Shown: positions 2,690 to 18,961 of the stretch, piece by piece | How positions within the stretch are numbered: position 1 is the first letter of the stretch | Layout: each line of letters begins with the position of its first letter | Source: Sporichthya brevicatena | GTDB taxonomy: Bacteria > Actinomycetota > Actinomycetes > Sporichthyales > Sporichthyaceae | Direction of reading: 5' to 3' | Assembly: GCF_039525035.1 (NCBI RefSeq) | Contig: NZ_BAAAHE010000034.1 | Coordinates: forward strand, 1 to 41,309 | Length of the DNA stretch: 41,309 nt | Position numbers and translations under genes: made by a program | The notes under the pieces: model-generated | Told to the model about the DNA's origin: nothing | Seen by the model: only the letters and a program-made list of their open reading frames with translations | Databases searched by the model: none

Positions 2690-3286
2690 TCAGGGCTGGC
2701 CGGGACGGAGGGCGACGAAGAAACCCTTGGCCGTGGTGAGCACACGGGTGCCGTCGCTCATGCAGCCCGAGGTGAAGATCTTCCGTCCGTTGAGCTCGTC
2801 GATCCACCCCTCGATGTAAAGCCTGCGAGCGACCGGGGTGACCGCTTCGTAACTCACCTCCAACGAACGCGTCCGGGCGACAGGGACGACGCTGCGTGCG
2901 GCAAGGCGGCCGAGGACGTCGTCGTAGACTAGAGGGATCACGCCGCCGTGCACGGCTCCTCCGCTGCCGTGATGCGCGGCTCCGAACGTCACCTCCGCGC
3001 GGACGCGACCTTCGCACAGCTCGGTGACGACGACCGCCGGCAGGAGGGGGTGGCCCTGGCCCGGGAGATCCGGCCGGCGCCCTGCCGGCGCCTCGTCCCG
3101 GTCCACGGTGTGGGAGCGGAGCTCCGCGGCGGCGGATCGCAAGGTCTGAGCGACCCCGCGTTGCAGATCCTCGGGTGCCTCGGACGCGCACAGCGCATCC
3201 ACGAAGTCGCGCGCCGAAGTCACCAGGTCGGCGAAGCCGTCCACGACGCCCGGAGCGACCGCATGGGGAGGGAGTTGCTGGACCAT
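2690..3286 (-). CDS. PaaI-like hotdog-fold thioesterase
   Basis: Predicted 198-residue protein starting at ATG 3286, with AAGGGA as a Shine-Dalgarno 8 bases upstream. A longer in-frame start exists, but it would place translation through the probable operator. The C-terminal two thirds form a hotdog domain. The segment AHHGSGGAVHGGVI is the usual PaaI/4HBT active-site helix region, where a Gly-rich turn and His/Asn positions contact the thioester. Family members hydrolyse acyl-CoA or aryl-CoA esters and recycle CoA when intermediates accumulate. That would suit a cluster with two acyl-CoA synthetases, but the substrate is unknown. It is the first gene of the two-gene minus-strand unit with the TetR gene, diverging from the importer operon. 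Confidence 0.8.
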   Translation of the reverse strand: MVQQLPPHAVAPGVVDGFADLVTSARDFVDALCASEAPEDLQRGVAQTLRSAAAELRSHTVDRDEAPAGRRPDLPGQGHPLLPAVVVTELCEGRVRAEVTFGAAHHGSGGAVHGGVIPLVYDDVLGRLAARSVVPVARTRSLEVSYEAVTPVARRLYIEGWIDELNGRKIFTSGCMSDGTRVLTTAKGFFVALRPGQP

Positions 3287-3302
3287 ATGACGTCCCTTGT
3301 CA
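3279..3302 (-). promoter_or_regulatory. possible operator copy at thioesterase start
   Basis: On the minus strand this reads TGACAAGGGACGTCA and then runs into the ATGGTC start. It keeps the ACA block, GTC at +9 and GTC at +17 of the element found at the other transcription units, and forms an imperfect TGAC-N7-GTCA inverted repeat. It overlaps the ribosome binding site and start codon. This is the least certain copy, because part of it is constrained by the Shine-Dalgarno and start codon. Confidence 0.4.
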
Positions 3303-3493
3303 TTCGTCGAAGCGGCGGCGTTGCGGCGACACAGTAGACACGCCAACGGAATTCGTTCCGCGTCTCCCGCAATCGTGCCGACATTCGCTGGCGTCTTCAC
3401 GGGCAACGGTGCGGAAGCCCGAAGACCAGCTCGGACGCCGTCGTCTTTGGTCAGCGCTGCCCGAACGCTGTCCGGAGCTCATGCAAGTGGCGC

Positions 3494-3577: not shown

Positions 3578-5209
3578 GTGCGCGACAGGGTGTTTCTCTC
3601 GCGGCGCAAGTCGGTTGTCGCCGCCTTGCTGACCCCGCTTGTACTGGCCTCGTGCGGCCACCGGCTGGACGACGCCGAACTCGGTCTCGGTGACGGAGTC
3701 GCGGTGACCCAGGACGGCGGGGCTGCCGTCGGCGCCGTCGGCGACTCGGGAGCCGCTCCGGCCGGCACTGGCGCCGGCGCGGGAACGTCCGGCGCGGCTG
3801 CCCCGGGCGTCACCGCTCCGCAGACGGGCGGCGGAACCGCAGGTCCGTCCCAGGGGAGCACCGCCGGCACCGGCAATGCGGGTGGCTCGGCCGTGGCACC
3901 GGGCGGCGGGAAGAGCAGTACCGCGGGCGGTGGCGCGTCAGCCTCGGGTGGATCGAGCGCGCCGTGCGCGAAGACGCTCGACCCGATCCTTCTCGGGCAG
4001 AACGGCACCTTCAGTGGTTTCCTTCAGGGCTCGCTTCAGGGCTTCCGCCCTGGCCTCGCCGCTTGGGCCGCTGACGTCAACTCGCGCGGCGGCGTGCAGT
4101 GCCACCCGGTGAAGCTCTTCCAGGTCGACGACGGGTCCAACCCCGCCAAGACGGTGTCCAACACCAAGGACCTGATCGAGAACAAGAAGGTCGTGGCCAT
4201 GGTGGCCGCGGTCGTGCCCTTCAACATCACCTCCTACCGGTCCGTGGTCGATCCGGCAGGCATCCCGACCATCGGCGGCGACAACGTCGACTCCCAGTGG
4301 GGCCAGGATCCGCTGATCTATCCGACTGGTGTGACCCTCCTGCCCGGTATGGCGCTGGCGATGAAGGCCTCGGCCGAGCGGACCGGGCTGAAGAAGTTCG
4401 CGGTCGTGTACTGCGTGGAAGCTGCGCCCTGCGCCCAGGCGAATCAGCAGGCGAAGAATCTCGCCGAGGCGGCGGGCGTGCAGATTGTCAACCAGCAGTC
4501 CATCTCCTTGACACAGACCGACTACACCTCGAACTGCCAGACCGCCAAGAACGCCGGTGCTGAATCGGTGCTCGCGGTGTTCGACTCCTCGGCCTTGCAG
4601 CGGTTCTTCCGTTCGTGCGCGGCGATCGGCTACTACCCGCCGTCGGCCACGATCGGTCTGGCTGTGGGCGCCGCGGCGGCGGCGGACCCGAACGTGCGCA
4701 AGTCGACGGTCACCGTTACCCCGGTGAACGCGCCGCACTTCAATACCTTCACCCCTGGTGTGGCCGACTTCGTGCGGGTGATGAAGCGCTACGCGCCGGG
4801 TGTCGAGCTGGACAGCTCGTCCATGTCCGCCTACACGGCGGGGCGCCTCTTCGAGGCGGCGCTGGCCAAGGTCGCCTCTGAGGCGCGAAGTGGGCCGGTC
4901 ACCACCGCGATGATCCTCAAGGGCCTGAACAGCATCAAGAACGAGCGTCTGGATGGTCTGGTGGCAGCGCCGCTGACGTTCAAGGCGGGCGAACCGCACC
5001 CGGCGCAGCCGTGCGCCTACATCACGGTCGTGCTTGCGAACGGCATCGCGGACCCGTCCAAGGGCAAGGCGTCCTGCCTGGCCAAGAACCTGACCGCGAA
5101 TGGTGCGCAATCGGGCGCCGCCTCCCCGCATCAGGCGCCGGCCAGTGAGGCGAAGACCTATCTGCGACCCGCCGCAACGGCGACGCGCCAGGGGAGGCGA
5201 GTGGCATGA
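3578..5209 (+). CDS. ABC importer substrate-binding lipoprotein (Peripla_BP_6/LivK type)
   Basis: Predicted 543-residue lipoprotein. The GTG 3578 start has GGAAGAGG 9 bases upstream. Residues 1-25 are a lipoprotein signal peptide with lipobox LASC; Cys26 would be lipidated. Residues about 43-130 are an unusually long Gly/Ala/Ser/Thr-rich linker, then a two-lobed LivK-like binding domain (about 132-500) begins with DPILLGQNGTFSG. Family members bind branched-chain amino acids, but in catabolic clusters they often bind aromatic acids or other hydrophobic acids. The gene heads a seven-gene operon with a fused permease and two ATPases, so it is the receptor of that importer. It overlaps the next gene by 4 bases. 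The ligand is unknown. Confidence 0.9.
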   Translation: MRDRVFLSRRKSVVAALLTPLVLASCGHRLDDAELGLGDGVAVTQDGGAAVGAVGDSGAAPAGTGAGAGTSGAAAPGVTAPQTGGGTAGPSQGSTAGTGNAGGSAVAPGGGKSSTAGGGASASGGSSAPCAKTLDPILLGQNGTFSGFLQGSLQGFRPGLAAWAADVNSRGGVQCHPVKLFQVDDGSNPAKTVSNTKDLIENKKVVAMVAAVVPFNITSYRSVVDPAGIPTIGGDNVDSQWGQDPLIYPTGVTLLPGMALAMKASAERTGLKKFAVVYCVEAAPCAQANQQAKNLAEAAGVQIVNQQSISLTQTDYTSNCQTAKNAGAESVLAVFDSSALQRFFRSCAAIGYYPPSATIGLAVGAAAAADPNVRKSTVTVTPVNAPHFNTFTPGVADFVRVMKRYAPGVELDSSSMSAYTAGRLFEAALAKVASEARSGPVTTAMILKGLNSIKNERLDGLVAAPLTFKAGEPHPAQPCAYITVVLANGIADPSKGKASCLAKNLTANGAQSGAASPHQAPASEAKTYLRPAATATRQGRRVA

Positions 5210-6636
5210 CGCGACGTCGTAAGCCGGCTCGGCGTCGGCGGCTCGCTCTGGCAGTCGTTCCGGTCACCGTGCTGTCGGCCGGAGCCCACCTGTTCCTCTC
5301 GGCCGGGACTGCTCAGGCGGAAGGCGCCGTGTTCGACGCCTTCGCCCAGGGCATCGGTGTGCAGGCGACCTTGAGTAACCAGTCGTTGCCGTTGGGCCTG
5401 GTCATCGAGGGCATCGGTCCGGAGGCTTCCTCTCGGGTCACCTCCTTCGGACAATCCGATGCCGAGGCGTCCTTCCCCTACACGGGGACGGTGGTTCCGG
5501 GTCTGTTCGGTCTCGGGCCGCCGCTCCTGCTGGGGCTCCCGGGGATCGAGTACCCAGCGCAGGCCGCCACCGGCGCGGGCCAACCTCCTCAGGACATTGA
5601 CTTCCCCGGGGTGTCGCTGCACGCCGAGAGTGGGACCGCCAGCAACGTCGCCGAGGCGGTCGTCGGGGACGCCGGGGCAGGTATTGCCGGTGGTCGATCG
5701 GCATCGCGCATCGACCGCGACGAGTCGGGGAATGTCGTGTCGACCGCGACCGCGCACTTCGACTCGCTGAAGCTCGGCGGTTCTCTGACGCTCAGCAACG
5801 TGCATTCCACCGTCTGGGTTCTCGCGGACTCGACCACGGGCAAACTGACCCGTAAGTCCTCGTTCAGCATCGGGCGGCTGACCGTGCCCGGGCTGTCGGT
5901 GACGGTGCCGGAGAAGTCCCCCGCCCAGCTCTCGCTGCCGAACCCGTTGCCGGGCCTGCCGCAGGCTCCTCCGGTGGCACTCCCGTCGATTCCGCTGCCG
6001 ATGGCGGGGCAAACCCTGCCCGCCCCGGAGATCGGATTCATCGACGGAACGTTCACCACCACCCTGCCGGGATTCGGGAGCCAGAAGTTCGCGATTCCGG
6101 CCCAGGCCGTGCTCGACGGGTTGAAGGCCGCGGGCGTCGAGCTGGCCTACCAGCCAGCAGTCGAGACGGCCACCGGTGTGCAGGGCGGCGTCTTCACCGC
6201 CAAGTACACCTTCGCCGACCTGCCGGACAATCAGTACTTCTCGGGTCCGGTCCCGGTGACCTACAACGTTGCGTCGGCCGTGGCGAGTGTGAACCTGACG
6301 CCGGTGGGCCTGGCGCCTGCGACCGGCGCAATCGACGCCGGAGTCGACACCGGTGTCGTCGCTGCTCCGGCCCCCGCGGGGGTCGATGGGGCCAGCGCGC
6401 CCGACCTGGCCGGTCTCGGGACCGACCTGGGCGGCGCGGTGCCCGGTGAGGTCCCGGCCACGGTGAATCTCGCCCCCGCTCCGTCCGCGGGCGGCCAGCC
6501 GATCGCGCAGGCCGGTTCCACCAGCTCACTGCCCTTGAACAGCGACCTGAACAACCTCTACTTCCTCCTCGTTCTCCTCGTCGTCGGTCAGCTCGTGGTC
6601 ACGACGGTCCTGCGCTTGCTGGGGGTTCGCCGATGA
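5206..6636 (+). CDS. secreted, C-terminally membrane-anchored protein of unknown family
   Basis: Predicted 476 residues, not recognised. The N-terminus is very basic (RRRKPARRRR), followed by a hydrophobic stretch and an AQA site at about residue 38, so it should be exported and cleaved. Residues 40-430 are rich in Gly, Ser, Thr, Val and Pro, with repeated short hydrophobic strands (for example LGLPGIEYP, LPNPLPGLP), suggesting beta structure. A single hydrophobic helix (about 449-471) ending in Arg-Arg would anchor it in the membrane with the bulk outside. It overlaps the binding protein upstream and the small membrane protein downstream by 4 bases each. It is therefore made with the importer and may help pass a poorly soluble ligand to it. 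That role is inference from context only. Confidence 0.75.
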   Translation: MTRRRKPARRRRLALAVVPVTVLSAGAHLFLSAGTAQAEGAVFDAFAQGIGVQATLSNQSLPLGLVIEGIGPEASSRVTSFGQSDAEASFPYTGTVVPGLFGLGPPLLLGLPGIEYPAQAATGAGQPPQDIDFPGVSLHAESGTASNVAEAVVGDAGAGIAGGRSASRIDRDESGNVVSTATAHFDSLKLGGSLTLSNVHSTVWVLADSTTGKLTRKSSFSIGRLTVPGLSVTVPEKSPAQLSLPNPLPGLPQAPPVALPSIPLPMAGQTLPAPEIGFIDGTFTTTLPGFGSQKFAIPAQAVLDGLKAAGVELAYQPAVETATGVQGGVFTAKYTFADLPDNQYFSGPVPVTYNVASAVASVNLTPVGLAPATGAIDAGVDTGVVAAPAPAGVDGASAPDLAGLGTDLGGAVPGEVPATVNLAPAPSAGGQPIAQAGSTSSLPLNSDLNNLYFLLVLLVVGQLVVTTVLRLLGVRR

Positions 6637-7040
6637 GCGACTTGATGAAACTGACCCGTAATCAGTGGGACCGTGCTGCGGCGGCAGCCTTGGTGGCCGC
6701 CGGCCTGGTGGCTCTGCTGCTCGGGTGGGTCGGAATCAGCGGTGCCGACGCGGTCGTCAAGCAGTTGCCTTACATGATCTCGGGCGGGATCGGCGGCATC
6801 GCTCTGGTCGGCGTCGGGGCCGCCCTGTGGGTGGCCTCGGACATGCGGGACGAGTGGAGTGAGCTGCGCCGCCTGCGGCTCACCGTGGACCGGCTCGAGA
6901 CCGAGCGGGTCGCCCTGGCCCAGGTCGAGGTCCTGACCCACGAGGAGTCCGGTGCACGGCACGGGCGGACGCAGGCCGCGCACAATGCGGTTCCGGTGGC
7001 GTCGCACGCCGGGCGCGAGAACTCCTCCTCGGCGTGGTGA
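6633..7040 (+). CDS. small two-TM membrane protein with coiled-coil segment
   Basis: Predicted 135 residues, ATG 6633 in a 4-base overlap with the gene before. There are two hydrophobic helices at about 14-37 and 48-71. A charged heptad-like stretch follows (about 75-105, RDEWSELRRLRLTVDRLE), suggesting a short cytoplasmic coiled coil, and then a His/Arg/Ala-rich tail. No family is recognised. Its place between the importer's binding protein and its permease, and the second small 2-TM protein that follows, suggest an accessory or assembly subunit of the transporter. Confidence 0.75.
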   Translation: MSDLMKLTRNQWDRAAAAALVAAGLVALLLGWVGISGADAVVKQLPYMISGGIGGIALVGVGAALWVASDMRDEWSELRRLRLTVDRLETERVALAQVEVLTHEESGARHGRTQAAHNAVPVASHAGRENSSSAW

Positions 7041-7405
7041 CGGGGCGTCGTCGCCCCGCGCCGTCCGAGGAACTGTGGACGCGGGGTGAGGTGAGACTGG
7101 CAGGCGGGCTCGGCGTCATCGGCGCGATCGGGCTGGTCTTCTGCTGGTGGGGCGGTAGCGGCGAGCGGACCTTCGAGGACGGTAAGGACTGGGTGGTCGG
7201 CGCGGTAGTCGCGGCCGCCCTGATCATCCTCGCCGCGGTTCACCTGCTCCTGCGCGGATTCCGGCGGCTGCGGGAGGCTAAGGACGATGCCGTCAACCGC
7301 CTGCTGATCGCCCTCCCGCCCGTCGCTGTGCACTTCGAGATCCCGGCCGAGCGCCCGCGCCCGGTGGCTGAACTCGCTCCCGTCTCCGAGGTGGCGCTCC
7401 GATGA
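7034..7405 (+). CDS. small two-TM membrane protein
   Basis: Predicted 123 residues starting at GTG 7034, overlapping the preceding gene by 7 bases and the permease gene by 4. Hydrophobic helices lie at about 20-41 (containing FCWWGG) and 53-76, and the C-terminal 45 residues are soluble. It is not clearly homologous to its neighbour, although the topology is the same. No known family is recognised. The tight overlaps on both sides make it a real, co-translated part of the importer operon. Confidence 0.7.
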   Translation: MVTGRRRPAPSEELWTRGEVRLAGGLGVIGAIGLVFCWWGGSGERTFEDGKDWVVGAVVAAALIILAAVHLLLRGFRRLREAKDDAVNRLLIALPPVAVHFEIPAERPRPVAELAPVSEVALR

Positions 7406-9423
7406 ACGAGTACCTGCCGTATCTGATCTTCGGCCTGACGGCCGGCTCGATCTACGGCATCTCCGCTATGGGTCTGGTCCTGACCTACAAGACCTCCGGC
7501 GTGTTCAACTTCGCGCACGGCGCCGTGAGCGCGGTCAGCGCGTACGTGTTCTACGAGTGCTGTCAGGTCCGTGGGCTTCCGTGGCCGATCGCCGGTTTCA
7601 TCGCGGTGTTCGTCTTCGGCCCGCTCGCCGGACTGATCCTGGAACGTATGGCGGTCCAGCTCGCCAAGGTCACGGTCGCCAACCGGATCGTGGCTACCGT
7701 CGGTCTGCTGGTGTGCATCCTGGCCCTGGCCGGGATCTACTACGGCCCGAACTCGACGTTCGTCTTCGAGAGCTTTCTGCCGAGCGAGGCGGCGTTCACC
7801 ATCTCCGGCGTCGCGGTCAGCTGGGACAACGTGGTCAACCTGGCTTTCGGCATCGCGCTAGCCGTCGCGCTGTGGTTGTTCTTCACCTTCAGCCGGCTGG
7901 GTCTGCAGATGCGGGCCGTCGCCGACGACCCGGATCTGCTCGACGTCGCTGGCGTTGCACCGGCACAGGTGCGTCGGCTGGCGTGGGTAATCGGCTCCAT
8001 GCTCGCCGCTCTGTCCGGCGTGCTGTTCGCTTCCGCCCAAGGGCAGCTCGACATCAACCTGCTTTCGCTGCTGGTCGTGCAGGCCTTCGGCGCGGCGGCA
8101 ATCGCCCGCTTCACCAGCCTGCCGATGGCCTTCGTCGGCGGCATCATTGTCGGTCTGGCCCAGAAGATCGTGGCCAAGTTGATCGTGGGACACGATCAAT
8201 TGCAGGGCATCGACCTGAACGTGCCGTTCATCGTGCTGTTCATCTTCCTGCTGGTCGCCTCGAAGAACTCGCTGGTCGAAGCGGGACGCACCATCAAGGC
8301 CCAGGCCCCGCGGCCCAGCCTGTTCCCGCCCCAGGTCCGCACGGTCGGCTACGCAGCCCTCGCGGTCTTCGCGTTGTTCGTGCCGCACTTCGGCTTCGTC
8401 GGGTCTCACCTGACCGCTTGGAGCCAGGCGGTCGCGGCCATGGTTCTGTTCCTTTCGCTCGGTCTGCTGGTCCGGACCTCCGGTCAGATCTCCCTGTGTC
8501 ACATCGCCTTCGCGGCGATCGGCGCCAGTACGTTCGCGCACACCCAGTCCGACGGGCTGCCGTGGGTGGTCTCCGTGCTGCTCGCCGGCATTGCCGTGGT
8601 GCCCCTCGCGGCATTGATCGCCATCCCCGCCATCCGTCTGTCCGGACTCTTCCTCGGCCTGGCGACTCTCGGGTTCGGCATCTTCATCGCCCAGTACGCG
8701 TACCCGAAGAGTTACATGCTGGGCGGCGGCGTGATCCAGACCCCGCGCCCGCAGTTCTGGGGCATGGAGGACGACAAGCGGTACTACTACCTGCTGCTCG
8801 CCGTCACCGTGCTCGCGATCGCGCTCGTCGTGTCGATCGAGCGCTCGCGCTTCGGACGCCTGCTGCGCGGCCTCGGTGACTCGCCCACGGCGCTGGTCAC
8901 CGTCGGAGTGAGTATCAACGTCACTCGCGCGTTGGTCTTCTGCGTGGCGGGCTTCCTGGCCGGCATCAGCGGGGCGACGACGGCCTCGTTGTTCCGGAGT
9001 TCCAGTATCGACACCTACAACTACGTCCAGTCCCTGCTGCTGCTGGCCGTGCTGGCGATCTCGGGACGGCGCACGGTGCCCTCAGCGGTCGTCGCATCGC
9101 TCCTGCTCTACGTGGTTCCGAACTATCTCGACAACGCCACGGCCGGGTACTGGCTGCAGTTCGGCTTCGGCTTCTTCGCGATTGTGGCCGCCTGCGCGTC
9201 CTCCGGCGGTGTCGGAAGGTGGATCGATCGACTCACGGCGATCTCCGGCGCGGCGCCGGACGCGGGCAGTGGTGTGCCGGCACCGGGTGAGCCGACGTCA
9301 CGCTTGGCGGCCCGCACCGGCGACGTGTCGCGGGTATCCGTGCGGCGCGACCGGGTCCGGCGAGGTGACAGCGAACGCGAACGGGTGCTGGCCGGTGCCG
9401 GCGCTGATGAGGGGCGGCATTGA
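7402..9423 (+). CDS. fused LivH-LivM ABC permease
   Basis: Predicted 673-residue integral membrane protein. The first ~290 residues are a LivH-type permease, starting with YLIFGLTAGSIYGISAMGL and containing the GVFNFAHGA segment typical of LivH. Residues about 310-610 are a LivM-type permease (GQISLCHIAFAAIGA, then RLSGLFLGLATLGFG). The last ~60 residues are hydrophilic, Arg-rich and probably cytoplasmic. In many bacteria these are two genes; the fusion fixes their 1:1 stoichiometry. It follows the two small membrane proteins by a 4-base overlap and precedes the LivG-type ATPase by a 1-base overlap (TGATG). It forms the membrane channel of the importer. Confidence 0.92.
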   Translation: MNEYLPYLIFGLTAGSIYGISAMGLVLTYKTSGVFNFAHGAVSAVSAYVFYECCQVRGLPWPIAGFIAVFVFGPLAGLILERMAVQLAKVTVANRIVATVGLLVCILALAGIYYGPNSTFVFESFLPSEAAFTISGVAVSWDNVVNLAFGIALAVALWLFFTFSRLGLQMRAVADDPDLLDVAGVAPAQVRRLAWVIGSMLAALSGVLFASAQGQLDINLLSLLVVQAFGAAAIARFTSLPMAFVGGIIVGLAQKIVAKLIVGHDQLQGIDLNVPFIVLFIFLLVASKNSLVEAGRTIKAQAPRPSLFPPQVRTVGYAALAVFALFVPHFGFVGSHLTAWSQAVAAMVLFLSLGLLVRTSGQISLCHIAFAAIGASTFAHTQSDGLPWVVSVLLAGIAVVPLAALIAIPAIRLSGLFLGLATLGFGIFIAQYAYPKSYMLGGGVIQTPRPQFWGMEDDKRYYYLLLAVTVLAIALVVSIERSRFGRLLRGLGDSPTALVTVGVSINVTRALVFCVAGFLAGISGATTASLFRSSSIDTYNYVQSLLLLAVLAISGRRTVPSAVVASLLLYVVPNYLDNATAGYWLQFGFGFFAIVAACASSGGVGRWIDRLTAISGAAPDAGSGVPAPGEPTSRLAARTGDVSRVSVRRDRVRRGDSERERVLAGAGADEGRH

Positions 9424-10220
9424 TGGCGCAGGTTGACGGGCTCTCTGTCGAGGGACTGGTCGTTCGCTTCGGTGGCCTCACTGCGGTCGACGGACAGACT
9501 CTGACGGCCCCCCGGGGCAGGATCACCGGGCTGATCGGGCCGAACGGTGCGGGCAAGACCACGACGTTCAACGCCTGCACCGGCATGCTCCGACCCACCG
9601 CCGGCAGGGTCAGCCTGTTCGGAGAGAACGTCACGTCGTTGCCGCCGCAGGCCAGGGCTCTACGTGGACTGGGTCGCACGTTTCAGCGCATGGAACTCTT
9701 CGACACCTTGACCGTCCGGGAAAACGTCCGAATGGGCAAGGAAGGCGGCATGGCGGGACGCAACCCGCTGCGACATCTCCGGGCTCCGCGCGGGCAGGCG
9801 GCGCTCGTCGACCGACTGGCTGATGATGCCCTCGACATGTGCGGCATCGGCCACCTGGCTCATCGCCGGCCCAGCGATCTGTCGACCGGGCAGCGTCGGC
9901 TCGTCGAGCTCGCACGATGCATTGCGGGTGAGTTCACGATCATGCTGCTGGATGAACCCTCCAGCGGTCTTGACGGGGAGGAGACCGAGGAGTTCGGGCG
10001 GATCCTGCGTTCCCTGGTCGCCGATCGTGGCGTCGGGATCCTGATCGTGGAACACGACATGGCCCTCGTCATGAGCACGTGCGAGTACATCCATGTCCTC
10101 GACTTCGGCAAGCCCATCTTCGAAGGCACACCGCCGCAGGTCGCCAGCAGCCCCTTGGTCCGCGCGGCGTATCTCGGCTCGGAAGCCTCCGAGCTCGAAC
10201 TGGTCGAGGAAGGTGCCTGA
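9423..10220 (+). CDS. livG: ABC importer ATPase, LivG type
   Basis: Predicted 265-residue ATPase. I choose ATG 9423, which overlaps the permease stop by one base and has GAGGGGCGG upstream, over a TTG one codon earlier. Walker A is GPNGAGKTT (about 41-49), Walker B is IMLLDEPSSGLD, and the H-loop is VEHDM. The signature is LSTGQ rather than the usual LSGGQ. The insertion typical of LivG after the Q-loop (about 100-130) is present. It pairs with the next ATPase to drive the fused permease. Confidence 0.92.
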   Translation: MAQVDGLSVEGLVVRFGGLTAVDGQTLTAPRGRITGLIGPNGAGKTTTFNACTGMLRPTAGRVSLFGENVTSLPPQARALRGLGRTFQRMELFDTLTVRENVRMGKEGGMAGRNPLRHLRAPRGQAALVDRLADDALDMCGIGHLAHRRPSDLSTGQRRLVELARCIAGEFTIMLLDEPSSGLDGEETEEFGRILRSLVADRGVGILIVEHDMALVMSTCEYIHVLDFGKPIFEGTPPQVASSPLVRAAYLGSEASELELVEEGA

Positions 10221-10915
10221 TGCTCGAACTCTCCGGGGTCGACGCTCACTACGGCGCGACTCAGGTGCTGCGCGGGATCGACATCCAGGTGCCGGTCTCC
10301 TCTGTCGTCGCGCTGCTCGGGCCCAACGGGGCCGGCAAGACTACGCTGCTTCGCGTTGCCAGCGGACTGCTCAAGCCCACCCGTGGACGCATGAGTATCG
10401 ACGGTGTGGACGTGACGGGAGCGGCGCCCCATCAGCTGGTGGACAAAGGGCTCTGCCTGGTGCCGGAGGGTCGCGGCATCTTCGGCTCCCTGACGGTGCG
10501 TGAGAACTTGGTTCTCTGCTCGCGCCGCGGCGGCGAGAAGGAAGCGATCGAGCGCGCGGTCGACGCGTTTCCGCGTCTTGGTGAGCGCCTCGATCAGGTC
10601 TCGCGGACGATGAGTGGTGGCGAGCAGCAGATGCTCGCTCTCAGTCGGGCGTACATCCAGCGCCCGCGATTCGTCCTGCTCGACGAGGTCAGCATGGGTC
10701 TGGCGCCCAAGATCGTCGACGAGATCTTCGAGTTCCTTGCCCGTCTTGCCCAGGAGGGGACGGCGCTGCTCCTGGTTGAGCAGTACGTCACTCGGGCTCT
10801 GGCGGCCGCCGACTACGTCTACCTCCTCAACCGCGGACAGGTCGGGTTCGCGGGTGAGCCCAGTCAGCTCGACGCGGACGCCCTGGCCGAGCATTACGTC
10901 GGGGCCGGCCAGTAG
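10220..10915 (+). CDS. livF: ABC importer ATPase, LivF type
   Basis: Predicted 231 residues, ATG 10220 in a 1-base overlap with the preceding gene's stop (TGATG). Walker A is GPNGAGKTT, the signature is MSGGEQQ, Walker B is VLLDEVSMGLAP, and LLVEQY is the H-loop region, with Gln at the switch position as is usual in LivF. Its length is normal for LivF. It is the last gene of the importer operon; the next gene is 113 bases away and has its own promoter. No strong terminator is visible behind it. Confidence 0.92.
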   Translation: MLELSGVDAHYGATQVLRGIDIQVPVSSVVALLGPNGAGKTTLLRVASGLLKPTRGRMSIDGVDVTGAAPHQLVDKGLCLVPEGRGIFGSLTVRENLVLCSRRGGEKEAIERAVDAFPRLGERLDQVSRTMSGGEQQMLALSRAYIQRPRFVLLDEVSMGLAPKIVDEIFEFLARLAQEGTALLLVEQYVTRALAAADYVYLLNRGQVGFAGEPSQLDADALAEHYVGAGQ

Positions 10916-10949: not shown

Positions 10950-11011
10950 TGACGCCCCGGCCACTCCGGGCGAGAATGCGGACGAGCGGACAAAAAGCGT
11001 CTGTGTGTCAG
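10950..11011 (+). promoter_or_regulatory. promoter and operator of the Rieske oxygenase unit
   Basis: TTGACG (10950-10955) and GAGAAT (10973-10978) are 17 bases apart. The cluster-wide element follows at 10988-11011, over the expected transcription start. It has ACAA at 10990, GTC at +9 (10999) and GTC at +17 (11007). A repressor bound here would block the promoter. Shine-Dalgarno AAGGA is at 11016-11020, 8 bases before ATG 11029. Confidence 0.6.
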
Positions 11012-11028
11012 AACTAAGGATGTCACTC

Positions 11029-12033
11029 ATGCACGGATTCCCTCACGGTTACGCCAGCGGTTGGTACCAGGTGGGGTGGAGCGGAGAGTTCGGTCCCGGG
11101 GCGGTCGTCCCGCTTCGGTACTTCGAGAAGGACCTCGTGTGCTTCCGAACCGAGTCCGGCGACCTACGGATCAGTGACGCCTTCTGCCTCCACTTCGGCG
11201 CGCACCTCGGTTACGGGGGCAAGGTCGAAGGAGACTGCATCGTCTGCCCGTTCCACGGCTGGAAGTGGGACGCCGAAGGTCGCAACGTCGACATCCCGTA
11301 CAGCGACCCCGAGCGGATGAAGCTGCAGATCAAGCACTGGCCCGTCGCCGAGGTCGACGGCCTCGTGCTGATGTGGTTCGGGGCGAACGGCGAGGCGCCG
11401 ACCTGGGACCCGCCGCGGATGCTGCCGGAGGGCGCCGACCACCTCACGGATTTCTGGCCGGTCTACCCGGACACGTGCCACGTCTGGCCCGGTCTGCGAT
11501 TCCCGCCGCAGGTCGCCACCGAGAACAGTGGCGACGCAGCCCACTTCCACTATGTCCACGGCGCCGCGTCAGTGCCGGACGTCGAGGAGTGGTCGGAGGG
11601 CGAGCACTGGTTCACCACGGGGTTCAAGGTGACCTTCGGGGGCCACGCCCCGACCACCTGGGCCACACCCAACGGGCCGGTGGACGGGCGGATCGTCACG
11701 ACGTGCCACGGGATGGGACTCGCTGCGGGGCGCATCGAGTCCTTCGACCTCGTCTACACGCTCGCCTCGACGACGCCGATCGACCGCCACACCTCCGACC
11801 ACCGCGCGACGGTGTGGGTCCCCAAGGTGCGGGGTGACGGTTCGAAGCTGGACGAGTCGGTACGTGACCGCTGGGCACGCCAGCAGACCACGCAGCACGT
11901 CGCCGACTTCCCGGTGTGGGAGAACATGACCTACATCGCGAAGCCGCCGTTCGCGGCCACCGAGGTCAAGTCCTTCCACGCCCTGCGGCGGTGGATCGAG
12001 GGGCAGTACTCGAACTCCGGCGGGGCCGCGTGA
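11029..12033 (+). CDS. Rieske non-heme iron oxygenase, KshA-like
   Basis: Predicted 334-residue terminal oxygenase. ATG 11029 is chosen because AAGGA sits 8 bases upstream; in-frame starts at 11005 and 11020 lack a well-placed Shine-Dalgarno. The Rieske [2Fe-2S] site is C53-x-H55 and C73-x2-H76 (CPFHGW). The mononuclear iron site is in ENSGDAAHFHYVH (D169, H172, H177). Length and layout resemble 3-ketosteroid 9-alpha-hydroxylase oxygenase (KshA) and similar single-component oxygenases that hydroxylate alicyclic compounds. No reductase lies beside it; the reductase at 29998-31677 or a distant gene could supply electrons. It heads a seven-gene unit. The substrate is not known. Confidence 0.88.
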   Translation: MHGFPHGYASGWYQVGWSGEFGPGAVVPLRYFEKDLVCFRTESGDLRISDAFCLHFGAHLGYGGKVEGDCIVCPFHGWKWDAEGRNVDIPYSDPERMKLQIKHWPVAEVDGLVLMWFGANGEAPTWDPPRMLPEGADHLTDFWPVYPDTCHVWPGLRFPPQVATENSGDAAHFHYVHGAASVPDVEEWSEGEHWFTTGFKVTFGGHAPTTWATPNGPVDGRIVTTCHGMGLAAGRIESFDLVYTLASTTPIDRHTSDHRATVWVPKVRGDGSKLDESVRDRWARQQTTQHVADFPVWENMTYIAKPPFAATEVKSFHALRRWIEGQYSNSGGAA

Positions 12034-12977
12034 CCCCGACCGACTCGCTCGGCTTCGGGCTGCTCGTTCCTACCCTCGCAGAGTTCGAGCCGTGCGGCCT
12101 TTCGGACTTGCGGGCGGCTGCGGAACTCGGCGACCGTTCTGACGTCGATGTGCTGTGGGTGGGCGACCACCTCATGTACAGCGCACCGATCCACGACGCC
12201 ACGGTGGCCACGGCGGTGCTCGGGGCCCTCACGTCGCGGGTCAAGGTGGGCACCAACGTGCTTCAGCTTCCCCTCCGTCGGCCGGTGGACGTGGCGAAGA
12301 GTTACGCCTCGATCAGCCAACTGACCTCGGGTCGCGTGGTGCTCGGCATCGGCGTGGGTGGCGGGTTCGAGCCCGAGTGGATCGCGGCCGGCGTGAGTCT
12401 GCGCGATCGCGGCGCGCGCTGTGACGAGGCCATCGACGCGCTGCACTGGTACTGGAACGGTGAGGAGCGCGCGGGCCGGTACGCCGTCAGCCCGGGTGTG
12501 GCGATCGACCCTCCGCCGGTCGGCGGCCGCGTCCCGCTGTGGGTGGGCGGCCGCGCCGGGGCGGCAGTCCGCCGGGCGGCGCGATGTGACGGCAGCCTGA
12601 ACATCTGGGTCAGCCCACAGCGGTGCGCGTCGATCCGAGAGGAAATTACCGACCTGCGCGATGGCGACATCGCCGAGTTCACCTTCGGCCTCGAGCTGCT
12701 TGCCCACGTGCACGACGATCTCGCCACGGCGCGGGAGAACACGCGAACCGCGATCTCGCGCCTGAACCTCGAACCCGATGCGCTGGAGAAGTACACCGCG
12801 TACGGACCGCCGGAGGTCGTGGCCGAGCGGGTCCTCGCGTTCGTGGAGGCCGGCGTGCAGCACGTCAGCTTCTACCTGCCGACGGAGGGCTGGCTTCCCC
12901 AAGCGACCCGCATCGTCGACGAGGTGATCCCGCTGGTGCGCGCCGCCCGCCCCTCGCTCGTCGCCCTGGAGGCATGA
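12030..12977 (+). CDS. LLM-class (luciferase-like) flavin or F420 oxidoreductase
   Basis: Predicted 315 residues, starting at GTG 12030 in a GTGA overlap with the Rieske gene's stop. It has the luciferase-like TIM-barrel hallmarks: VDVLWVGDHLMY near residue 45, VKVGTNVLQLPLRRP, then SGRVVLGIGVGGG, and PLWVGGR in the second half. Family members use FMNH2 or coenzyme F420, and actinobacteria commonly have F420 versions. The reaction could be a monooxygenation, a Baeyer-Villiger-type oxidation or a hydride transfer. The cofactor cannot be decided here. Confidence 0.82.
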   Translation: MTPTDSLGFGLLVPTLAEFEPCGLSDLRAAAELGDRSDVDVLWVGDHLMYSAPIHDATVATAVLGALTSRVKVGTNVLQLPLRRPVDVAKSYASISQLTSGRVVLGIGVGGGFEPEWIAAGVSLRDRGARCDEAIDALHWYWNGEERAGRYAVSPGVAIDPPPVGGRVPLWVGGRAGAAVRRAARCDGSLNIWVSPQRCASIREEITDLRDGDIAEFTFGLELLAHVHDDLATARENTRTAISRLNLEPDALEKYTAYGPPEVVAERVLAFVEAGVQHVSFYLPTEGWLPQATRIVDEVIPLVRAARPSLVALEA

Positions 12978-12981
12978 CGTC

Positions 12982-13878
12982 ATGACGGATTACGGATTCC
13001 TCATCTACGAGGAGATCGACGACGCGTCGATCGTGCGGATCCTGCTGAACCGGCCGGAGACCCGTAACGCCCAGAACCGTGGGCTGCTGGTCGAGCTCGA
13101 TGAGGCCTTCGCCCGTGCCGAGGAGGACGACCGCGTCCGCGTCGTCATCCTCGGCGGTGTGGGTCCGCTCTTCTCCTCCGGCCACGACCTGGGCTCGAAG
13201 GTGCATCTGGCCGAGCTCAACGAGGGGCCCGAACAGCACCCCAGCCGCCGGATCAACGGTGGCACGAAGCCCGCCACCGAGAAGCGAATGCGTCAGGAGT
13301 GGCACTACTTCTTCGACAACACGCGACGCTGGCGCAACCTCCGGAAGATCACCATCGCGCAGGTTCAGGGCAAGGTCTTCGCGGCCGGGCTCATGCTGAC
13401 CTGGGCCTGCGACCTCATCGTCGGTGCCGATGACGTCGAGTTCGCCGACGTGGTCGGCAGTCGACTCGGCATGTGCGGCGTCGAGTACTTCGGGCACCCC
13501 TGGGAGTTCGGACCTCGTCGCGCCAAGGAGCTGCTCCTCACCGGCGACACGCTGACCGTGGACGAGGCGTACCGCATCGGCATGGTGAGCAAGGTCTTCC
13601 CGCGCGCGGAGCTCGAGGAGTCGACGCTGGCCTTCGCGCGGCGCATTGCGCGCATGCCGTCGATGGCGGCTCTGCTCATCAAGGAATCGGTGAACCAGAG
13701 CGTCGACAACATGGGTTTCTACAACGCTCTCAACGCCTGCTTCACCCTGCACGAACTGAACCACGCCTACTGGGCCGAGGTGAGCGGCGGCAAGGTGATC
13801 CTCGGAACCGAGGAATTCGGCCTTCCCGGGTGGAAGGACGCAGGTCCGCCCCGACCGCGGGACGCAGCGACCCCATGA
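12982..13878 (+). CDS. enoyl-CoA hydratase/isomerase family protein
   Basis: Predicted 298 residues of the crotonase fold, starting at ATG 12982, 4 bases after the preceding stop. SSGHDL (about 65-70) and the GKVFAAG segment provide the two oxyanion-hole NH groups. CDLIVGADDVEFAD follows as usual. The region that normally holds the second catalytic Glu reads VVGSRLGMCG, so it may not be a classic hydratase; isomerase, hydrolase or C-C-cleaving crotonases are alternatives. A long insert (about 75-110) and a C-terminal extension (GWKDAGPPRP) are present. It probably acts on a CoA-ester intermediate of the pathway. Confidence 0.85.
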   Translation: MTDYGFLIYEEIDDASIVRILLNRPETRNAQNRGLLVELDEAFARAEEDDRVRVVILGGVGPLFSSGHDLGSKVHLAELNEGPEQHPSRRINGGTKPATEKRMRQEWHYFFDNTRRWRNLRKITIAQVQGKVFAAGLMLTWACDLIVGADDVEFADVVGSRLGMCGVEYFGHPWEFGPRRAKELLLTGDTLTVDEAYRIGMVSKVFPRAELEESTLAFARRIARMPSMAALLIKESVNQSVDNMGFYNALNACFTLHELNHAYWAEVSGGKVILGTEEFGLPGWKDAGPPRPRDAATP

Positions 13879-15068
13879 CCGGCACCAGCCTCGCCCCGAC
13901 GGTCCTCGATGCGATCCAGACCCTCACGGACTTCGCCGCCGGTAACGCCGACGTGGACCAGGTTCTCCGGCGTCAGTACGAACTCGGTCTCGCCTGGCCG
14001 CACTTCCGCGTCGGGGAAGGGGGCCTCGGCCTGAGCCGCGCGGAGGCCCGCGCGGTCCGAGCGCGACTGACCGAGATCGACCTCCCGCGGACACCGGCCA
14101 GCTTCGTGGGACTGCACCAGGCCTCGGCGCTGTTCCACGACTTCGGCTCCGACCGCCAGCGGGCCCTGATCCCGCGCATCTTCACGGGGGAGGACCAGTG
14201 GTGTCAGCTCTTCAGTGAGCCCGGCGCCGGATCCGACCTCGCGAACGTCGGGTGCCGCGCCGAACTGCGCGGCGGGACCTGGCACATCGACGGGCAGAAG
14301 GTGTGGACGAGCAACGCTCGCCACGCCTCCCATGCTCTCCTGCTCGCGCGGACCGATCCCGGCGAGGTGAAGCACCGCGGCATGACCATGTTCGTCCTCG
14401 ACATGCGGCAGCCCGGCGTCGAGGTCAGGCCGCTGCGGCAGATGGACGGCGGCGCGCGGTTCAGCGAGGTGTTCCTGGTCGACGCGCGGGTCAGCGATAC
14501 GGACCGGGTCGGTGACGTCGGCGCCGGCTGGGCGATGGCGATGCACATCCTGACCACGGAGCGGGACGGCGCCAGTGAGCTCTTCGACCGGCCTGTGGAG
14601 GAGATCCTCGAACTGTGGCGCACGAGCTCACCGCGGCCTGCGCCTGCGCTCCGGGACGAGGTCGTACGCCTGTGGGTCTCCTCGCGGGTGAACCAGCTCT
14701 CCGGGGCCCGGGCCCGGCGGAGCGGTGATCCGGCGGAGAAGGCCCGACTCGGCGGCATCGCGAAGATCGCCGCGAGCGAGCATGCGCAACGGCACGCTGA
14801 TCTCCTCGCGGTCCTCCTCGGGCCCTCCGCCGTCGCCGCCGCCGACTACGAGGCGGCGTTCGAGGACGACCTCGATCCACGCTCCACCGCGGCCAAGGAC
14901 TTCGGCAGCCTTTCGCCGCACCGCTTCATCCTGCGCTGTCGAGCTATGTCCATCGAGGGCGGCACCAATGAGATCGCGCGCAACGTGGCGGGTGAGCGTG
15001 TTCTGGGCCTTCCGCCCGAGCCCCGCGCGGACAAGGGACGCCCATGGCGGGATCTGCTCAAGTCATGA
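13875..15068 (+). CDS. acyl-CoA dehydrogenase
   Basis: Predicted 397-residue FAD enzyme beginning at ATG 13875 in an ATGA overlap. It has the family motif SEPGAGSDLAN and, near the C-terminus, IEGGTNEIARNVAGERVLGLP, both of which contact FAD or the substrate. The N-terminal helical domain is short (ACAD proteins commonly have a longer one). It would introduce a double bond into an acyl-CoA. Some actinobacterial steroid dehydrogenases of this family work as alpha2beta2 pairs. The second full-length member at the end of this unit could be its partner, but this is a guess. Confidence 0.88.
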   Translation: MTGTSLAPTVLDAIQTLTDFAAGNADVDQVLRRQYELGLAWPHFRVGEGGLGLSRAEARAVRARLTEIDLPRTPASFVGLHQASALFHDFGSDRQRALIPRIFTGEDQWCQLFSEPGAGSDLANVGCRAELRGGTWHIDGQKVWTSNARHASHALLLARTDPGEVKHRGMTMFVLDMRQPGVEVRPLRQMDGGARFSEVFLVDARVSDTDRVGDVGAGWAMAMHILTTERDGASELFDRPVEEILELWRTSSPRPAPALRDEVVRLWVSSRVNQLSGARARRSGDPAEKARLGGIAKIAASEHAQRHADLLAVLLGPSAVAAADYEAAFEDDLDPRSTAAKDFGSLSPHRFILRCRAMSIEGGTNEIARNVAGERVLGLPPEPRADKGRPWRDLLKS

Positions 15069-16672
15069 CTGATCGTCAGGTCTCCTTCGCGTTCGGCGAT
15101 CTCTGGGAACTGGTGAGTGCGGCGGTTCCGGATCGCACCGCGTTGGTCTGCGAATCGACGCGCCTGACCTTCGCTGAGCTGGACGAACGGGCCGCCCAGT
15201 TGGCCGGCTGGCTCGCCGCGCAGGGCGTCGTCCCGGGGAGTTACGTCGGCGTCCAGATGCGTAACCGGTCCGAGCACGTCGAGACCATGCTCGCGGCCTA
15301 CAAGCTGCGCGCCGTCCCGGTGAACATCAATTACCGCTTCGGGCCGCAGGAGTTGCGGTACCTGTACGCCGATGCCGGCCTGAGCGGCGTCGTCCACGAC
15401 GAGGACCTGCGCGAGGCCGTCGACGAGGCAAGGCAGGACGTCCCGGGTCTGACCTGGACGCTGGAGGCCGGTACCGACTTCGGTGCGGCGGTGGGTGCGA
15501 GCTCACCGGCGGCAGTTCGGCCCCGCTCCGGGGACGACGTGTACGCCCTCTACACCGGCGGCACGACCGGGCACCCGAAGGCAGTTGAGTGGCGGATGGA
15601 GGACGCGTTCTTCGCGTGCGTCGGCGGCGGCGATCCAACCGGTGACCGCGGCCCGGTGTCGACCCCCACGGAGCTCCTGGACCGTCTGCTCGAGGATCGA
15701 GCGTTCCTCCCCGCCCCGCCGTTGGTGCACGCGGCCGGTATGTGGACCACCCTGCGGTGGCTGTTCGCTGGGTGCAAGGTTGTTCTCGTTCCTCGGTTCG
15801 ATCCCGCTGACATCTGGCGGCACATCGCCCGGGAGCGGGTCACGACCATGAACATCGTCGGTGACGCGATGGCGCGCCCGCTGGTTTCCGCCGTGCCGGA
15901 AAGTGCGGACCTCACGTGCCTGCGCACCGTCGCGACCGGGGGAGCGGGACTGAGCCCCGCGGTGCGATCGCAGCTGCTCGCCGCACTGCCGTGGCTGACG
16001 GTCAAGGACAGCTACGGGTCGTCGGAAACCGGCGTCCACGGCTGGGGTGTATCCGACTCCGGCCGCACGGCAACCGGCTTCTCTGTCGTGGACACCGTCC
16101 TGTTCGACCCGCAGACGCGTGCCCCCAAGCCGGCCGGTGCTCCCGGCCCGGGCCTCGTGGCCCGCCGCGGCCGGGTCCCGCTGCGCTACCGAGGTGATGC
16201 CGCCAAGAGCGGCGATACCTTTGTGACGATCGACGGGGAGCGCTACGCCCTCACCGGCGACCTCGCCGAGCTCGACCCGGACGGCCAGTTGCGCCTCATC
16301 GGACGAGGGTCCCAATGCATCAACTCGGGCGGGGAGAAGATCTTTCCCGAGGAGGTCGAGCAGATCCTGCGCGAACATCCGGACGTGATCGACGCGGTCG
16401 TGGTCGGTTTGCCCGACGAGCGGTGGGGTCAGAAGGTTGCGGCCCTGGTGGCTCCGTCTGACGGGGCGTCACCCAACGAGACGAACCTGCGTAGATATTG
16501 CCGGGAGCGGCTCGCGGGTTACAAGGTGCCCAAGCACGTGTTCGTCGTTCCGGCGGTGGAACGGACCATCGCGGGCAAGCTCGACTACCGGTGGGCCTCC
16601 GGCCGCGCCGCCACCCTGGCCCGAGCTCAGCAATCCTCCGGGAGCGCGCCGATGGAGGCGATTTCCTCATGA
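15065..16672 (+). CDS. AMP-forming acyl-CoA synthetase
   Basis: Predicted 535 residues, ATG 15065 in an ATGA overlap. It is an ANL-superfamily enzyme. The phosphate loop reads YTGGTTGHPKAVEW, with Gly for the usual Ser, followed by DSYGSSETG, YALTGDLAELDPDG, GRGSQCINSGGEKIFPEEVE and the C-terminal Lys region VERTIAGKLDYRW. It should adenylate a carboxylic acid and join it to CoA, and resembles FadD enzymes of the FadD3/FadD19 kind. It may activate a side-chain or ring-opened acid. Substrate unknown. Confidence 0.87.
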   Translation: MTDRQVSFAFGDLWELVSAAVPDRTALVCESTRLTFAELDERAAQLAGWLAAQGVVPGSYVGVQMRNRSEHVETMLAAYKLRAVPVNINYRFGPQELRYLYADAGLSGVVHDEDLREAVDEARQDVPGLTWTLEAGTDFGAAVGASSPAAVRPRSGDDVYALYTGGTTGHPKAVEWRMEDAFFACVGGGDPTGDRGPVSTPTELLDRLLEDRAFLPAPPLVHAAGMWTTLRWLFAGCKVVLVPRFDPADIWRHIARERVTTMNIVGDAMARPLVSAVPESADLTCLRTVATGGAGLSPAVRSQLLAALPWLTVKDSYGSSETGVHGWGVSDSGRTATGFSVVDTVLFDPQTRAPKPAGAPGPGLVARRGRVPLRYRGDAAKSGDTFVTIDGERYALTGDLAELDPDGQLRLIGRGSQCINSGGEKIFPEEVEQILREHPDVIDAVVVGLPDERWGQKVAALVAPSDGASPNETNLRRYCRERLAGYKVPKHVFVVPAVERTIAGKLDYRWASGRAATLARAQQSSGSAPMEAISS

Positions 16673-17646
16673 GCAGCGACCCCAAGACTCCACCGACCAT
16701 CGAGACGGTCCGGGAGATGGCCGCACGGTGGAGCAACTGGGGGCGCTGGGGTCCGGAGGATCAGCTCGGCACCCTCAACCACCTCCGCCCGGAACACCGG
16801 GTGGCCGCGGCCCAGCTGGTTCGCACCGGCGACGTGCTCTCGCTGGCCATCCCGCTCGGCGAGGACGGGCCGCAGACGGCCGGGAGCGGCCGGTTCAACC
16901 CCATCCATCTGATGCGTTACGACGGTCGGGACTTCACCGCCCCGGGATCGGCCGATCGCGACCCGCGCCGCGGATACCTGCAGAACGCCGACGACATCCT
17001 CATTCTGCCGCTGCAGGCGGCGACGCAGTGGGACGGCCTCGCGCATGTCTTCTTCGACCAACAGATGTACAACGGGTACTCCGCCGCCGAGGTCTCCAGT
17101 TCCGGTGCGCGTCGCAACGCCATCACCACGGCGACCGACCGGATGGTGGGACGTGGAGTACTACTCGATGTTCCGGCCGCGGCCGGAGTCGCTTCGCTAC
17201 CGCCTGGGTACGCCATCGGGTCCGCCGATCTCGAGCGCGCCGCTTCACACGCGGGTGTGACGGTGGGTTCCGGCGACTTCGTCCTTGTGCGCACGGGCCA
17301 TCTCGCGCGTGCTCGGGCCGGCGAGGGCTGGGGGGACTACGCCGGGGGCTCCGCGCCCGGCATCGGACTCGACAGCGTGAGCTGGATCGCGGAGCACGAG
17401 ATTGCGGGCCTGGCGACGGACACGTGGTCGGTCGAAGTCATCCCGGCCGAGACGCCGGACGTGATGTGCCCGGTCCACATCCTGCTGATCGTCATGCTCG
17501 GCCTGTGGGTCGGGGAGATCTTCGACCTGGAAGCGCTCGCCGAGCGTTGTGCCACCGACGGTCGCTACGAGTTCCTGTTCCTGGCGCCGCCGCTGCCGGT
17601 CACCGGCGGGGTCGGGTCGCCGATCAATCCGCAGGTGGTGCTGTGA
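16669..17646 (+). CDS. cyclase-family (kynurenine formamidase-like) metal hydrolase
   Basis: Predicted 325 residues, ATG 16669 in an ATGA overlap. It matches the cyclase/kynurenine formamidase fold: VLLDVPA, GDFVLVRTGH and EVIPAETPDVMCPVH are typical blocks. The normal HxGTHxDxPxH metal motif is replaced by TQWDGLAHVFFD (from residue 119), keeping D122 and H126. This TQWD form seems to define a subfamily common in actinobacteria. Relatives hydrolyse amides, lactones or cyclic ketones. Next to a BVMO-containing cluster, lactone or 1,3-diketone hydrolysis is attractive but unproven. Confidence 0.75.
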   Translation: MSSDPKTPPTIETVREMAARWSNWGRWGPEDQLGTLNHLRPEHRVAAAQLVRTGDVLSLAIPLGEDGPQTAGSGRFNPIHLMRYDGRDFTAPGSADRDPRRGYLQNADDILILPLQAATQWDGLAHVFFDQQMYNGYSAAEVSSSGARRNAITTATDRMVGRGVLLDVPAAAGVASLPPGYAIGSADLERAASHAGVTVGSGDFVLVRTGHLARARAGEGWGDYAGGSAPGIGLDSVSWIAEHEIAGLATDTWSVEVIPAETPDVMCPVHILLIVMLGLWVGEIFDLEALAERCATDGRYEFLFLAPPLPVTGGVGSPINPQVVL

Positions 17647-18869
17647 GTCTTCCTCCTCTCGACGAGTTCGTCCGCCGGGCGCACGACTGGCTCAGCTCCG
17701 AGTGCCCGCGCGCGGCCGCGGACCGGGGCCTCAACGACGTCGCGGTGTTCCACTCCCTTCCGCACGACCGGGAGCGGGCGCTGATCTCCGGTGCGGGGGA
17801 GTGGCAGCGGCGCAAGATGGACGCCGGCTACGGCGCCATCGCCTGGGCGCCGAAGTTCGGTGGCGCGGGGCTCACCCCCGCGCACGCGCGGGCCTTCACG
17901 GCTGCGGAGGCGCAGTACGCGACGCCGGCCGACCACGAGCTGCGCCGGATCACGGTCAATCTCGTCGCTCCCACCGTTCGAGACTGGGGTACGGAGCAGC
18001 AGCGTGAGCGCTTCGTCCGGCCCTTCCTCCGCTGCGAGGAGTTCGTCTGTCAGTTGTACTCCGAGCCGGGAGCAGGGTCGGACCTCGCGGGGTTGGCGAC
18101 ACGGGCCGCCGCCGACGGGTCGGACTGGGTGATCAACGGCGCGAAGATCTGGGTCTCCGGTGCGCAGTTCGCGGACTGGGGATTCCTGCTTGCGCGGACC
18201 GATCCCGACCAACCGAAGCACCGTGGGATCACGGCGTTCCTGCTTCCCATGAACGTCGAAGGCATCGAAGTCCGACCGATCCGTCAAATGACTGGTGGTG
18301 CCTCGTTCAACGAGGTCTTCCTGACCGATGTGCGGCTGGCCGACGAGTTTCGCCTCGGCGCGCCGGGCGAGGGCTGGCGCGTGGCAACGTCGATGCTCGC
18401 CTTCGAACGTAGCCAGAGCGGATCGCGCGCGGGTGTCGGAGCATCGGCGGAACAACTCCTGCAGCTGGCGCGTCGCAGCACGCGAATCGACCCAGCAGTG
18501 CGTGATCAGGTGGTCCGCGCGTACGTGCACGAGCGCACGCGGATGCTGACGCGGCAGCGTGCGGATGAGCGATCTCTTCATTCGACCGCCCCAGGACCTG
18601 AAGGTTCCATGGGCAAATTGCTCTGGGTCCAGGGGCTGCAGGCGATCGGCGACGCAGCTGCTGCAGTCCTCGGGCCTCGGATCGTCGCGGACGACGGAGG
18701 TCCCGGCACGTACGCCTGGTCGGAACACCTGCTGGGAGCGCCAGGCTTCCGGATCGCGGGCGGGAGTGACGAGATCCAGCGCAACATCCTCGCGGAACGC
18801 GTCTTGGGTTTGCCGGCGGAGCCGGGCCCGGCCCGGTCGCTCCCGTGGCGCGATCAACGGCGGATCTGA
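17643..18869 (+). CDS. acyl-CoA dehydrogenase
   Basis: Predicted 408 residues, starting at GTG 17643 in a GTGA overlap. It has a full-length helical N-terminal domain, YSEPGAGSDLAGLA in the beta-domain, KHRGITAFLLPM, RPIRQMTGGASFNEVFL, and C-terminal AGGSDEIQRNILAERVLGLP. It is a FAD-dependent acyl-CoA dehydrogenase, as in FadE17/FadE26-type actinobacterial proteins. It is the last gene of the unit that starts with the Rieske oxygenase and may pair with the dehydrogenase at 13875-15068. Confidence 0.88.
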   Translation: MSLPPLDEFVRRAHDWLSSECPRAAADRGLNDVAVFHSLPHDRERALISGAGEWQRRKMDAGYGAIAWAPKFGGAGLTPAHARAFTAAEAQYATPADHELRRITVNLVAPTVRDWGTEQQRERFVRPFLRCEEFVCQLYSEPGAGSDLAGLATRAAADGSDWVINGAKIWVSGAQFADWGFLLARTDPDQPKHRGITAFLLPMNVEGIEVRPIRQMTGGASFNEVFLTDVRLADEFRLGAPGEGWRVATSMLAFERSQSGSRAGVGASAEQLLQLARRSTRIDPAVRDQVVRAYVHERTRMLTRQRADERSLHSTAPGPEGSMGKLLWVQGLQAIGDAAAAVLGPRIVADDGGPGTYAWSEHLLGAPGFRIAGGSDEIQRNILAERVLGLPAEPGPARSLPWRDQRRI

Positions 18870-18937: not shown

Positions 18938-18961
18938 CGTTATTCGTCGGCGGAGGTCGTG

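Follow-up and report, generated by a model that had tools for sequence, protein, structure and literature searches.

We describe an operon of Sporichthya brevicatena, located at positions 3578–10915 of the forward strand of contig NZ_BAAAHE010000034.1, which encodes an ATP-binding cassette (ABC) importer of the Liv/HAAT type together with an exported, membrane-anchored accessory protein (ACC) and two small proteins with two transmembrane helices each (TM-A and TM-B). The window refers to the whole 41,309-nt stretch of this contig, and all genome-wide counts given below were obtained from the same Sporichthya genome (5.2 Mb), referred to as the host genome. On balance, we favor the view that the operon belongs to a distinct Actinomycetota subfamily of Liv/HAAT importers that has its own accessory module and takes up catabolic, probably hydrophobic or cyclic, substrates. 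The importer type itself is known; ACC and the two-helix proteins are two partner families without annotation, and a search of a limited collection of papers found no description of this importer system. Given its neighborhood of genes for the degradation of organic compounds, this recurrent Sporichthya system is probably a little-known machine for taking up organic food sources.

Seven open reading frames (ORFs), all with coding-type base composition at third codon positions (GC3), are tightly packed on the plus strand in the order substrate-binding protein (SBP), ACC, TM-A, TM-B, fused LivHM permease, LivG and LivF. Four-base overlaps join SBP to ACC (at 5206), ACC to TM-A (6633) and TM-B to LivHM (7402). 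TM-A and TM-B overlap by 7 bp if TM-B starts at the GTG at 7034 and by 4 bp with the ATG at 7037. The overlap between LivHM and LivG is four bases or one, depending on whether LivG starts at 9420 (TTG) or 9423, and LivG and LivF have one base in common (TGATG). A preliminary description made from the sequence had proposed this arrangement of a lipoprotein, a 476-residue anchored protein, two 2-TM proteins and a fused permease joined by overlaps, and all seven ORFs are confirmed here.

The core of the operon has every component of a Liv/HAAT (LivKHMGF) importer. The 543-residue SBP (3578–5209) is a lipoprotein with the lipobox LASC and Cys26, and it matches Peripla_BP_6 (PF13458, E 3.5e-41; 142.4 bits against a cut-off of 31.7); its closest relatives of solved structure are generic Liv-type binding proteins. 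The 673-residue permease (7402–9423) matches PF02653 (BPD_transp_2; 181.8 bits, E 1.9e-53) in two stretches of one fused chain, and its halves are recognized by LivH and LivM profiles. Both ATPases carry PF00005. LivG (9423–10220) also matches PF12399 (BCA_ABC_TP_C; 29.9 bits against 25.5) and has LivG as its best NCBIfam model, below cut-off; for LivF (10220–10915) the best models, UrtE and LivF, are likewise below cut-off. The operon differs from the standard five-gene Liv composition in that its permeases form one chain and ACC, TM-A and TM-B are added, as is also the case in most of 30 paralogous operons of the host genome. UrtABCDE urea importers have the same permease and ATPase superfamilies, and UrtB and UrtE are among the best NCBIfam models, but the scores fall far short of the equivalog cut-offs (UrtB 83.1 against 250.3; UrtE 195.5 against 285.8).

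A linker of ~107 residues (3656–3976), 85% of which are GASTPQND and which is rich in Gly, Ala, Ser, Thr and Pro, connects the lipid-anchored Cys of the SBP to the binding domain. The preliminary description had correctly noted a flexible Gly/Ala/Ser linker but put its length at ~85 residues. We rejected the linker as a special feature of this operon: paralogues have linkers of similar length, with a median of 103 in SBPs beside ACC and 101 elsewhere in the host genome, indicating a general trait of the SBP set.

The accessory module is recurrent. Iterated hidden Markov model (HMM) searches identified 31 ACC proteins in the host genome, 30 of which are encoded in operons with a fused LivHM, while the permease of the 31st lies beyond the stretch read. 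At least one hairpin gene, and mostly two, is present in 29 of these 30 operons. The order of the cassette varies, with ACC either first or 3′ of LivF. Thirty recurrences in one genome make the cassette far from a chance arrangement. The four host Liv operons whose LivH and LivM are separate proteins have neither ACC nor hairpin (Fisher p 0.0009), and four fused permeases on deeper, divergent branches also lack both accessory families. If the extra genes were often missing from otherwise identical operons, the preliminary description's proposal of a specialized importer would lose its ground; this was mostly not so, with all 30 same-clade host permeases accompanied by ACC and 29 of them by a 2-TM protein. 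Any ATPase gene is absent within 6 kb from 3 of the 30 ACC operons and a LivG-labelled one from 10, with labels derived from cross-matching profiles and some operon flanks being short; these counts give hints that ATPases are shared between importers.

The host genome contains 64 Peripla_BP_6 (PF13458) matches, including the SBP of the window, and many of these are orphans with no permease in the stretch read. One ACC operon has five consecutive SBP genes next to it (L060, G000:C16:104209-111587). LivH, LivM, LivF and LivG domains are all found in a single 1264-residue ORF at another locus (L096, G000:C8:120354-124145), and an 843-residue LivHM–ATPase fusion is encoded at C14:146781.

Relatives outside the genus have the module as well. 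With a single query sequence, ACC was recovered only in the five members of the host's family, a narrow ACC alignment searched against genome contigs matched only one contig of a Sporichthya metagenome-assembled genome, and plasmid searches gave no match. ACC profiles reached farther, with matches in 21 of 297 genomes sampled from the class, in 11 of 396 from the phylum and in all five sampled genomes of one further class; these counts come from samples in which few candidates were scored per genome, so that copies per genome are lower bounds. All 20 new ACC loci in relatives are Liv operons, of which 19 have a fused LivHM and 18 encode a TM protein. The ACC loci found earlier also lie in Liv operons, except L148, which was discarded as a spurious match. 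The combination seen in the window is not unique to it: the genuine ACC loci examined in other Actinomycetota families are all in Liv operons, and the permease is nearly always fused. A first permease tree separated 66 of 67 ACC-linked permeases, as one group, from the non-ACC sequences sampled by then; support was modest (0.605), and some of the non-ACC entries are poor comparators, being single halves of split permeases.

Because these relatives had been found through ACC, a permease-based search was then run. It revealed that three other families of the class have close permease relatives in which LivH, LivM and LivG are fused (L234–L246, mostly ~905–990 residues). These LivHMG fusions number 13, and none of their operons has ACC or a hairpin; in the tree they make up a single clade (0.999) that branches from within the ACC operons. 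ACC is also missing from four operons that are more distantly related, and three of these retain a short, weakly matching, tail-less hairpin. With one exception (L253, below), the operons without the extra genes differ from that of the window in other ways as well. The accessory module is therefore stable within its permease clade, with at least one loss, in which ACC and the hairpin went together. Within the host genome, ACC distances correlate with those of the permease (Mantel r 0.855, 30 operons) and of the SBP (r 0.783, 28 operons). That ACC divergence tracks both partners suggests contact or shared specificity.

ACC (5206–6636) is a 476-residue exported protein with an N-terminal signal at approximately residues 13–31 and a C-terminal hydrophobic helix at residues 451–469 (6556–6612) followed by a short basic tail, as judged by hydropathy; a helix at 449–471 is also present in the low-confidence structural model. 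The family is conserved, and ACC has no match in Pfam or NCBIfam scans; PDB sequence searches with ACC profiles gave no match, and no MlaD domain was detected in any of 31 ACC homologues. The middle part of choice-of-anchor P (NF040603) was matched by three ACC homologues outside Sporichthyaceae (E 7.5e-06 to 0.014), yet all ACC homologues fall below the cut-off of 27 bits (best 26.0), and ACC of the window gives no match. We therefore did not assign ACC to this family, for which we know of no function. These borderline scores do bear on another explanation, namely that ACC is a co-expressed envelope, adhesion or sensing protein outside the transport path and that the hairpins are regulatory, for example a metal or redox switch. 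The ACC gene often stands at the opposite end of the operon from the SBP gene, which fits such a role, and the Ada-like tail of the hairpins described below could sense metal or redox state. We nonetheless regard this explanation as improbable, since ACC divergence follows that of the permease and the SBP across ~30 paralogues, and since ACC and the TM proteins disappear together when the permease changes in the LivHMG fusions.

TM-A (6633–7040; 135 residues) and TM-B (7034–7405; 123 residues) are homologous hairpins of two hydrophobic helices. Basic residues at both ends of each protein predict, together with hydropathy, an N-in/C-in topology. TM-A has no match in Pfam or NCBIfam scans, TM-B has only matches below cut-off, and an alignment of 29 paralogues of TM-A shows the motif QWDR...Q-PY-SGG...ADLRDEW. 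Of 27 aligned TM-B proteins of the host genome, 25 have a tail with the pattern H-x3-C...C-x2-C (HCCC), which is predicted to lie on the cytoplasmic side. The four residues do not vary among 41 tailed homologues, which were selected for carrying the tail. TM-B of the window has lost this tail, and no replacement was seen in TM-A or the LivHM C-terminus of the window. Against the PDB, the best four matches of the hairpin profile are all the zinc domain of Escherichia coli Ada (E 0.006 to 0.024); a profile of the tail only is not significant (E 0.82). The hairpin tails align at all four ligand positions of the Ada N-terminal zinc domain but differ in having His for the first Cys, in their membrane context and in the tail-less copy of the window. 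The HCCC tail therefore likely binds metal; that it might descend from the Ada zinc domain is only a lead. A hairpin model built from L133 (four rows) contains fairly confident helices at 38–63 and 73–129 and no fold for the tail. Many lineages outside the genus have one hairpin instead of two, in which a TM-A-type hairpin is joined to an HCCC tail, which suggests that the pair of a tail-less TM-A and a tailed TM-B arose by duplication, with the parts divided between the copies.

The genes around the operon hint at the kind of substrate. Approximately 90 bp downstream begins a plus-strand catabolic run identified by Pfam (11005–18869), which encodes a KshA_C/Rieske oxygenase, an LLM monooxygenase, an enoyl-CoA hydratase (ECH), an acyl-CoA dehydrogenase (ACAD), an acyl-CoA synthetase, a cyclase and a second ACAD. 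Farther downstream are genes for short-chain dehydrogenases/reductases (SDRs), an aldehyde dehydrogenase (ALDH), an ACAD, two cytochromes P450, an FMO-like monooxygenase, a ferredoxin/pyridine-nucleotide reductase-like protein, another acyl-CoA synthetase, a TetR regulator, an amidohydrolase and a thiolase. A divergent 4HBT thioesterase-like gene (2693–3406, minus strand; PF03061, E 8.9e-05) lies upstream. Similar neighbors accompany the paralogous operons: 133 proteins flanking ACC operons include 13 TetR, 9 P450, 9 LLM, 8 SDR, 6 AMP-binding, 6 ECH, 5 ACAD and 4 thiolase matches, whereas none of these families is listed at 2 or more among 133 control proteins drawn from arbitrary places elsewhere in the host genome (pooled Fisher p ~3e-14 with one per family granted to the control, a statistic in which a protein with two matching families would count twice). 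Such neighbors speak against amino acids as substrates and in favor of compounds that are activated with CoA and degraded by oxidation.

One alternative is an ordinary importer of branched-chain or other amino acids, with ACC and the small proteins hitchhiking. The core parts, all of Liv/HAAT type, are what one would see in such a system. However, the operon is embedded in catabolic rather than amino acid-related genes, 30 operons and several families share its accessory genes, and its proteins reach neither the Liv nor the Urt cut-offs of NCBIfam, and we consider this alternative very improbable. The preliminary description had proposed to note which catabolic genes accompany this gene order; the neighbors are oxidative and CoA-ester catabolic genes. 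Recurrence and neighborhood together uphold its idea of a specialized importer with real accessory genes and a link to catabolism.

The preliminary description had further suggested a poorly soluble substrate and likened the operon to Mce4, which serves cholesterol uptake in mycolic-acid bacteria; both ideas are conjecture. As a functional stand-in for Mce4, the system would import sterols or very poorly soluble lipids, with ACC shuttling them across the envelope like Mce proteins. By analogy, both are multi-part importers with accessory membrane proteins and adjoining steroid-type catabolism genes. The KshA_C/Rieske gene, the two P450s and the FMO-like monooxygenase of the window would suit this role, the combination of accessory proteins and permease resembles the logic of Mce4, and the three operons without a nearby ATPase look as if ATPases were shared. 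KshA_C-type Rieske enzymes, however, also act on non-steroid substrates. Mce4 consists of two YrbE permeases, six Mce proteins and two Mam accessory subunits (PMC5487216). In a whole-Pfam scan, by contrast, no protein of the operon matched MlaD (PF02470), the permease is PF02653 and not MlaE, and the SBP is an ordinary lipoprotein related to generic Liv-type binding proteins; membership among Mce transporters was accordingly rejected. Moreover, the host has a separate six-gene Mce cluster, its six MlaD matches all lying together on contig C19, apart from the operon. A stand-in for Mce4 therefore seems unlikely to us.

Based on the favored assignment to a Liv/HAAT subfamily with its own module, we propose a plausible mechanism. 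First, the lipoprotein SBP on its long tether would pick up a small extracellular substrate of hydrophobic or cyclic nature. Anchored at the outer face through its C-terminal helix, ACC would receive or position either the ligand itself or the ligand-loaded SBP at the permease, and the hairpins would pack beside LivHM. The long cytoplasmic helix of the hairpins, with the metal-type tail where present, might help to hold or couple the ATPases, which is the weakest step; it is suggested by the disappearance of the hairpins where LivG is fused to the permease, together with the operons that have no ATPase gene within 6 kb. The imported substrate would subsequently be activated and oxidized by the products of the adjacent CoA-ester, P450 and Rieske genes. 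A more far-reaching version, which we put forward only tentatively, is that ACC passes hydrophobic ligands from the SBP to the fused permease, that metal-tailed hairpins recruit shared ATPases, and that ~30 parallel importers per cell serve many catabolic substrates.

Several observations weigh against the favored assignment and its mechanism. The coupling of ATPases is deduced from a pattern of gene loss in one clade, possibly a single event, and tethering of ATPases does not explain why ACC, an extracellular protein, was lost in the LivHMG clade as well. One operon (L253) keeps a tailed hairpin in the absence of ACC. The HCCC site is not essential, given the tail-less TM-B of the window. The predicted structure of ACC, computed from a two-row alignment, has low confidence (pLDDT 32) and gives neither fold nor role. 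The substrate is deduced from neighboring genes only, and the relatives in the first tree had been found via ACC, which makes the association outside the host genome partly a matter of ascertainment.

Two further features of the window lie outside the operon. Within the catabolic cluster, 18959–20355 encodes a predicted membrane protein beside a COX3-like protein (PF00510). A 483-residue ORF at 39712–41160 on the minus strand is, by eye, a candidate integrase of the phage type whose C-terminal part is GntR-like.

The usual annotation of Liv-type importers is that of branched-chain amino-acid transporters. If the proposed subfamily is real, many such 'amino-acid transporter' calls in Actinomycetota would be wrong, and ACC and the hairpins would add a further kind of subunit to ABC importers. 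The system would then also be a concrete candidate for the uptake of steroids, terpenoids or aromatic compounds outside mycolic-acid bacteria.

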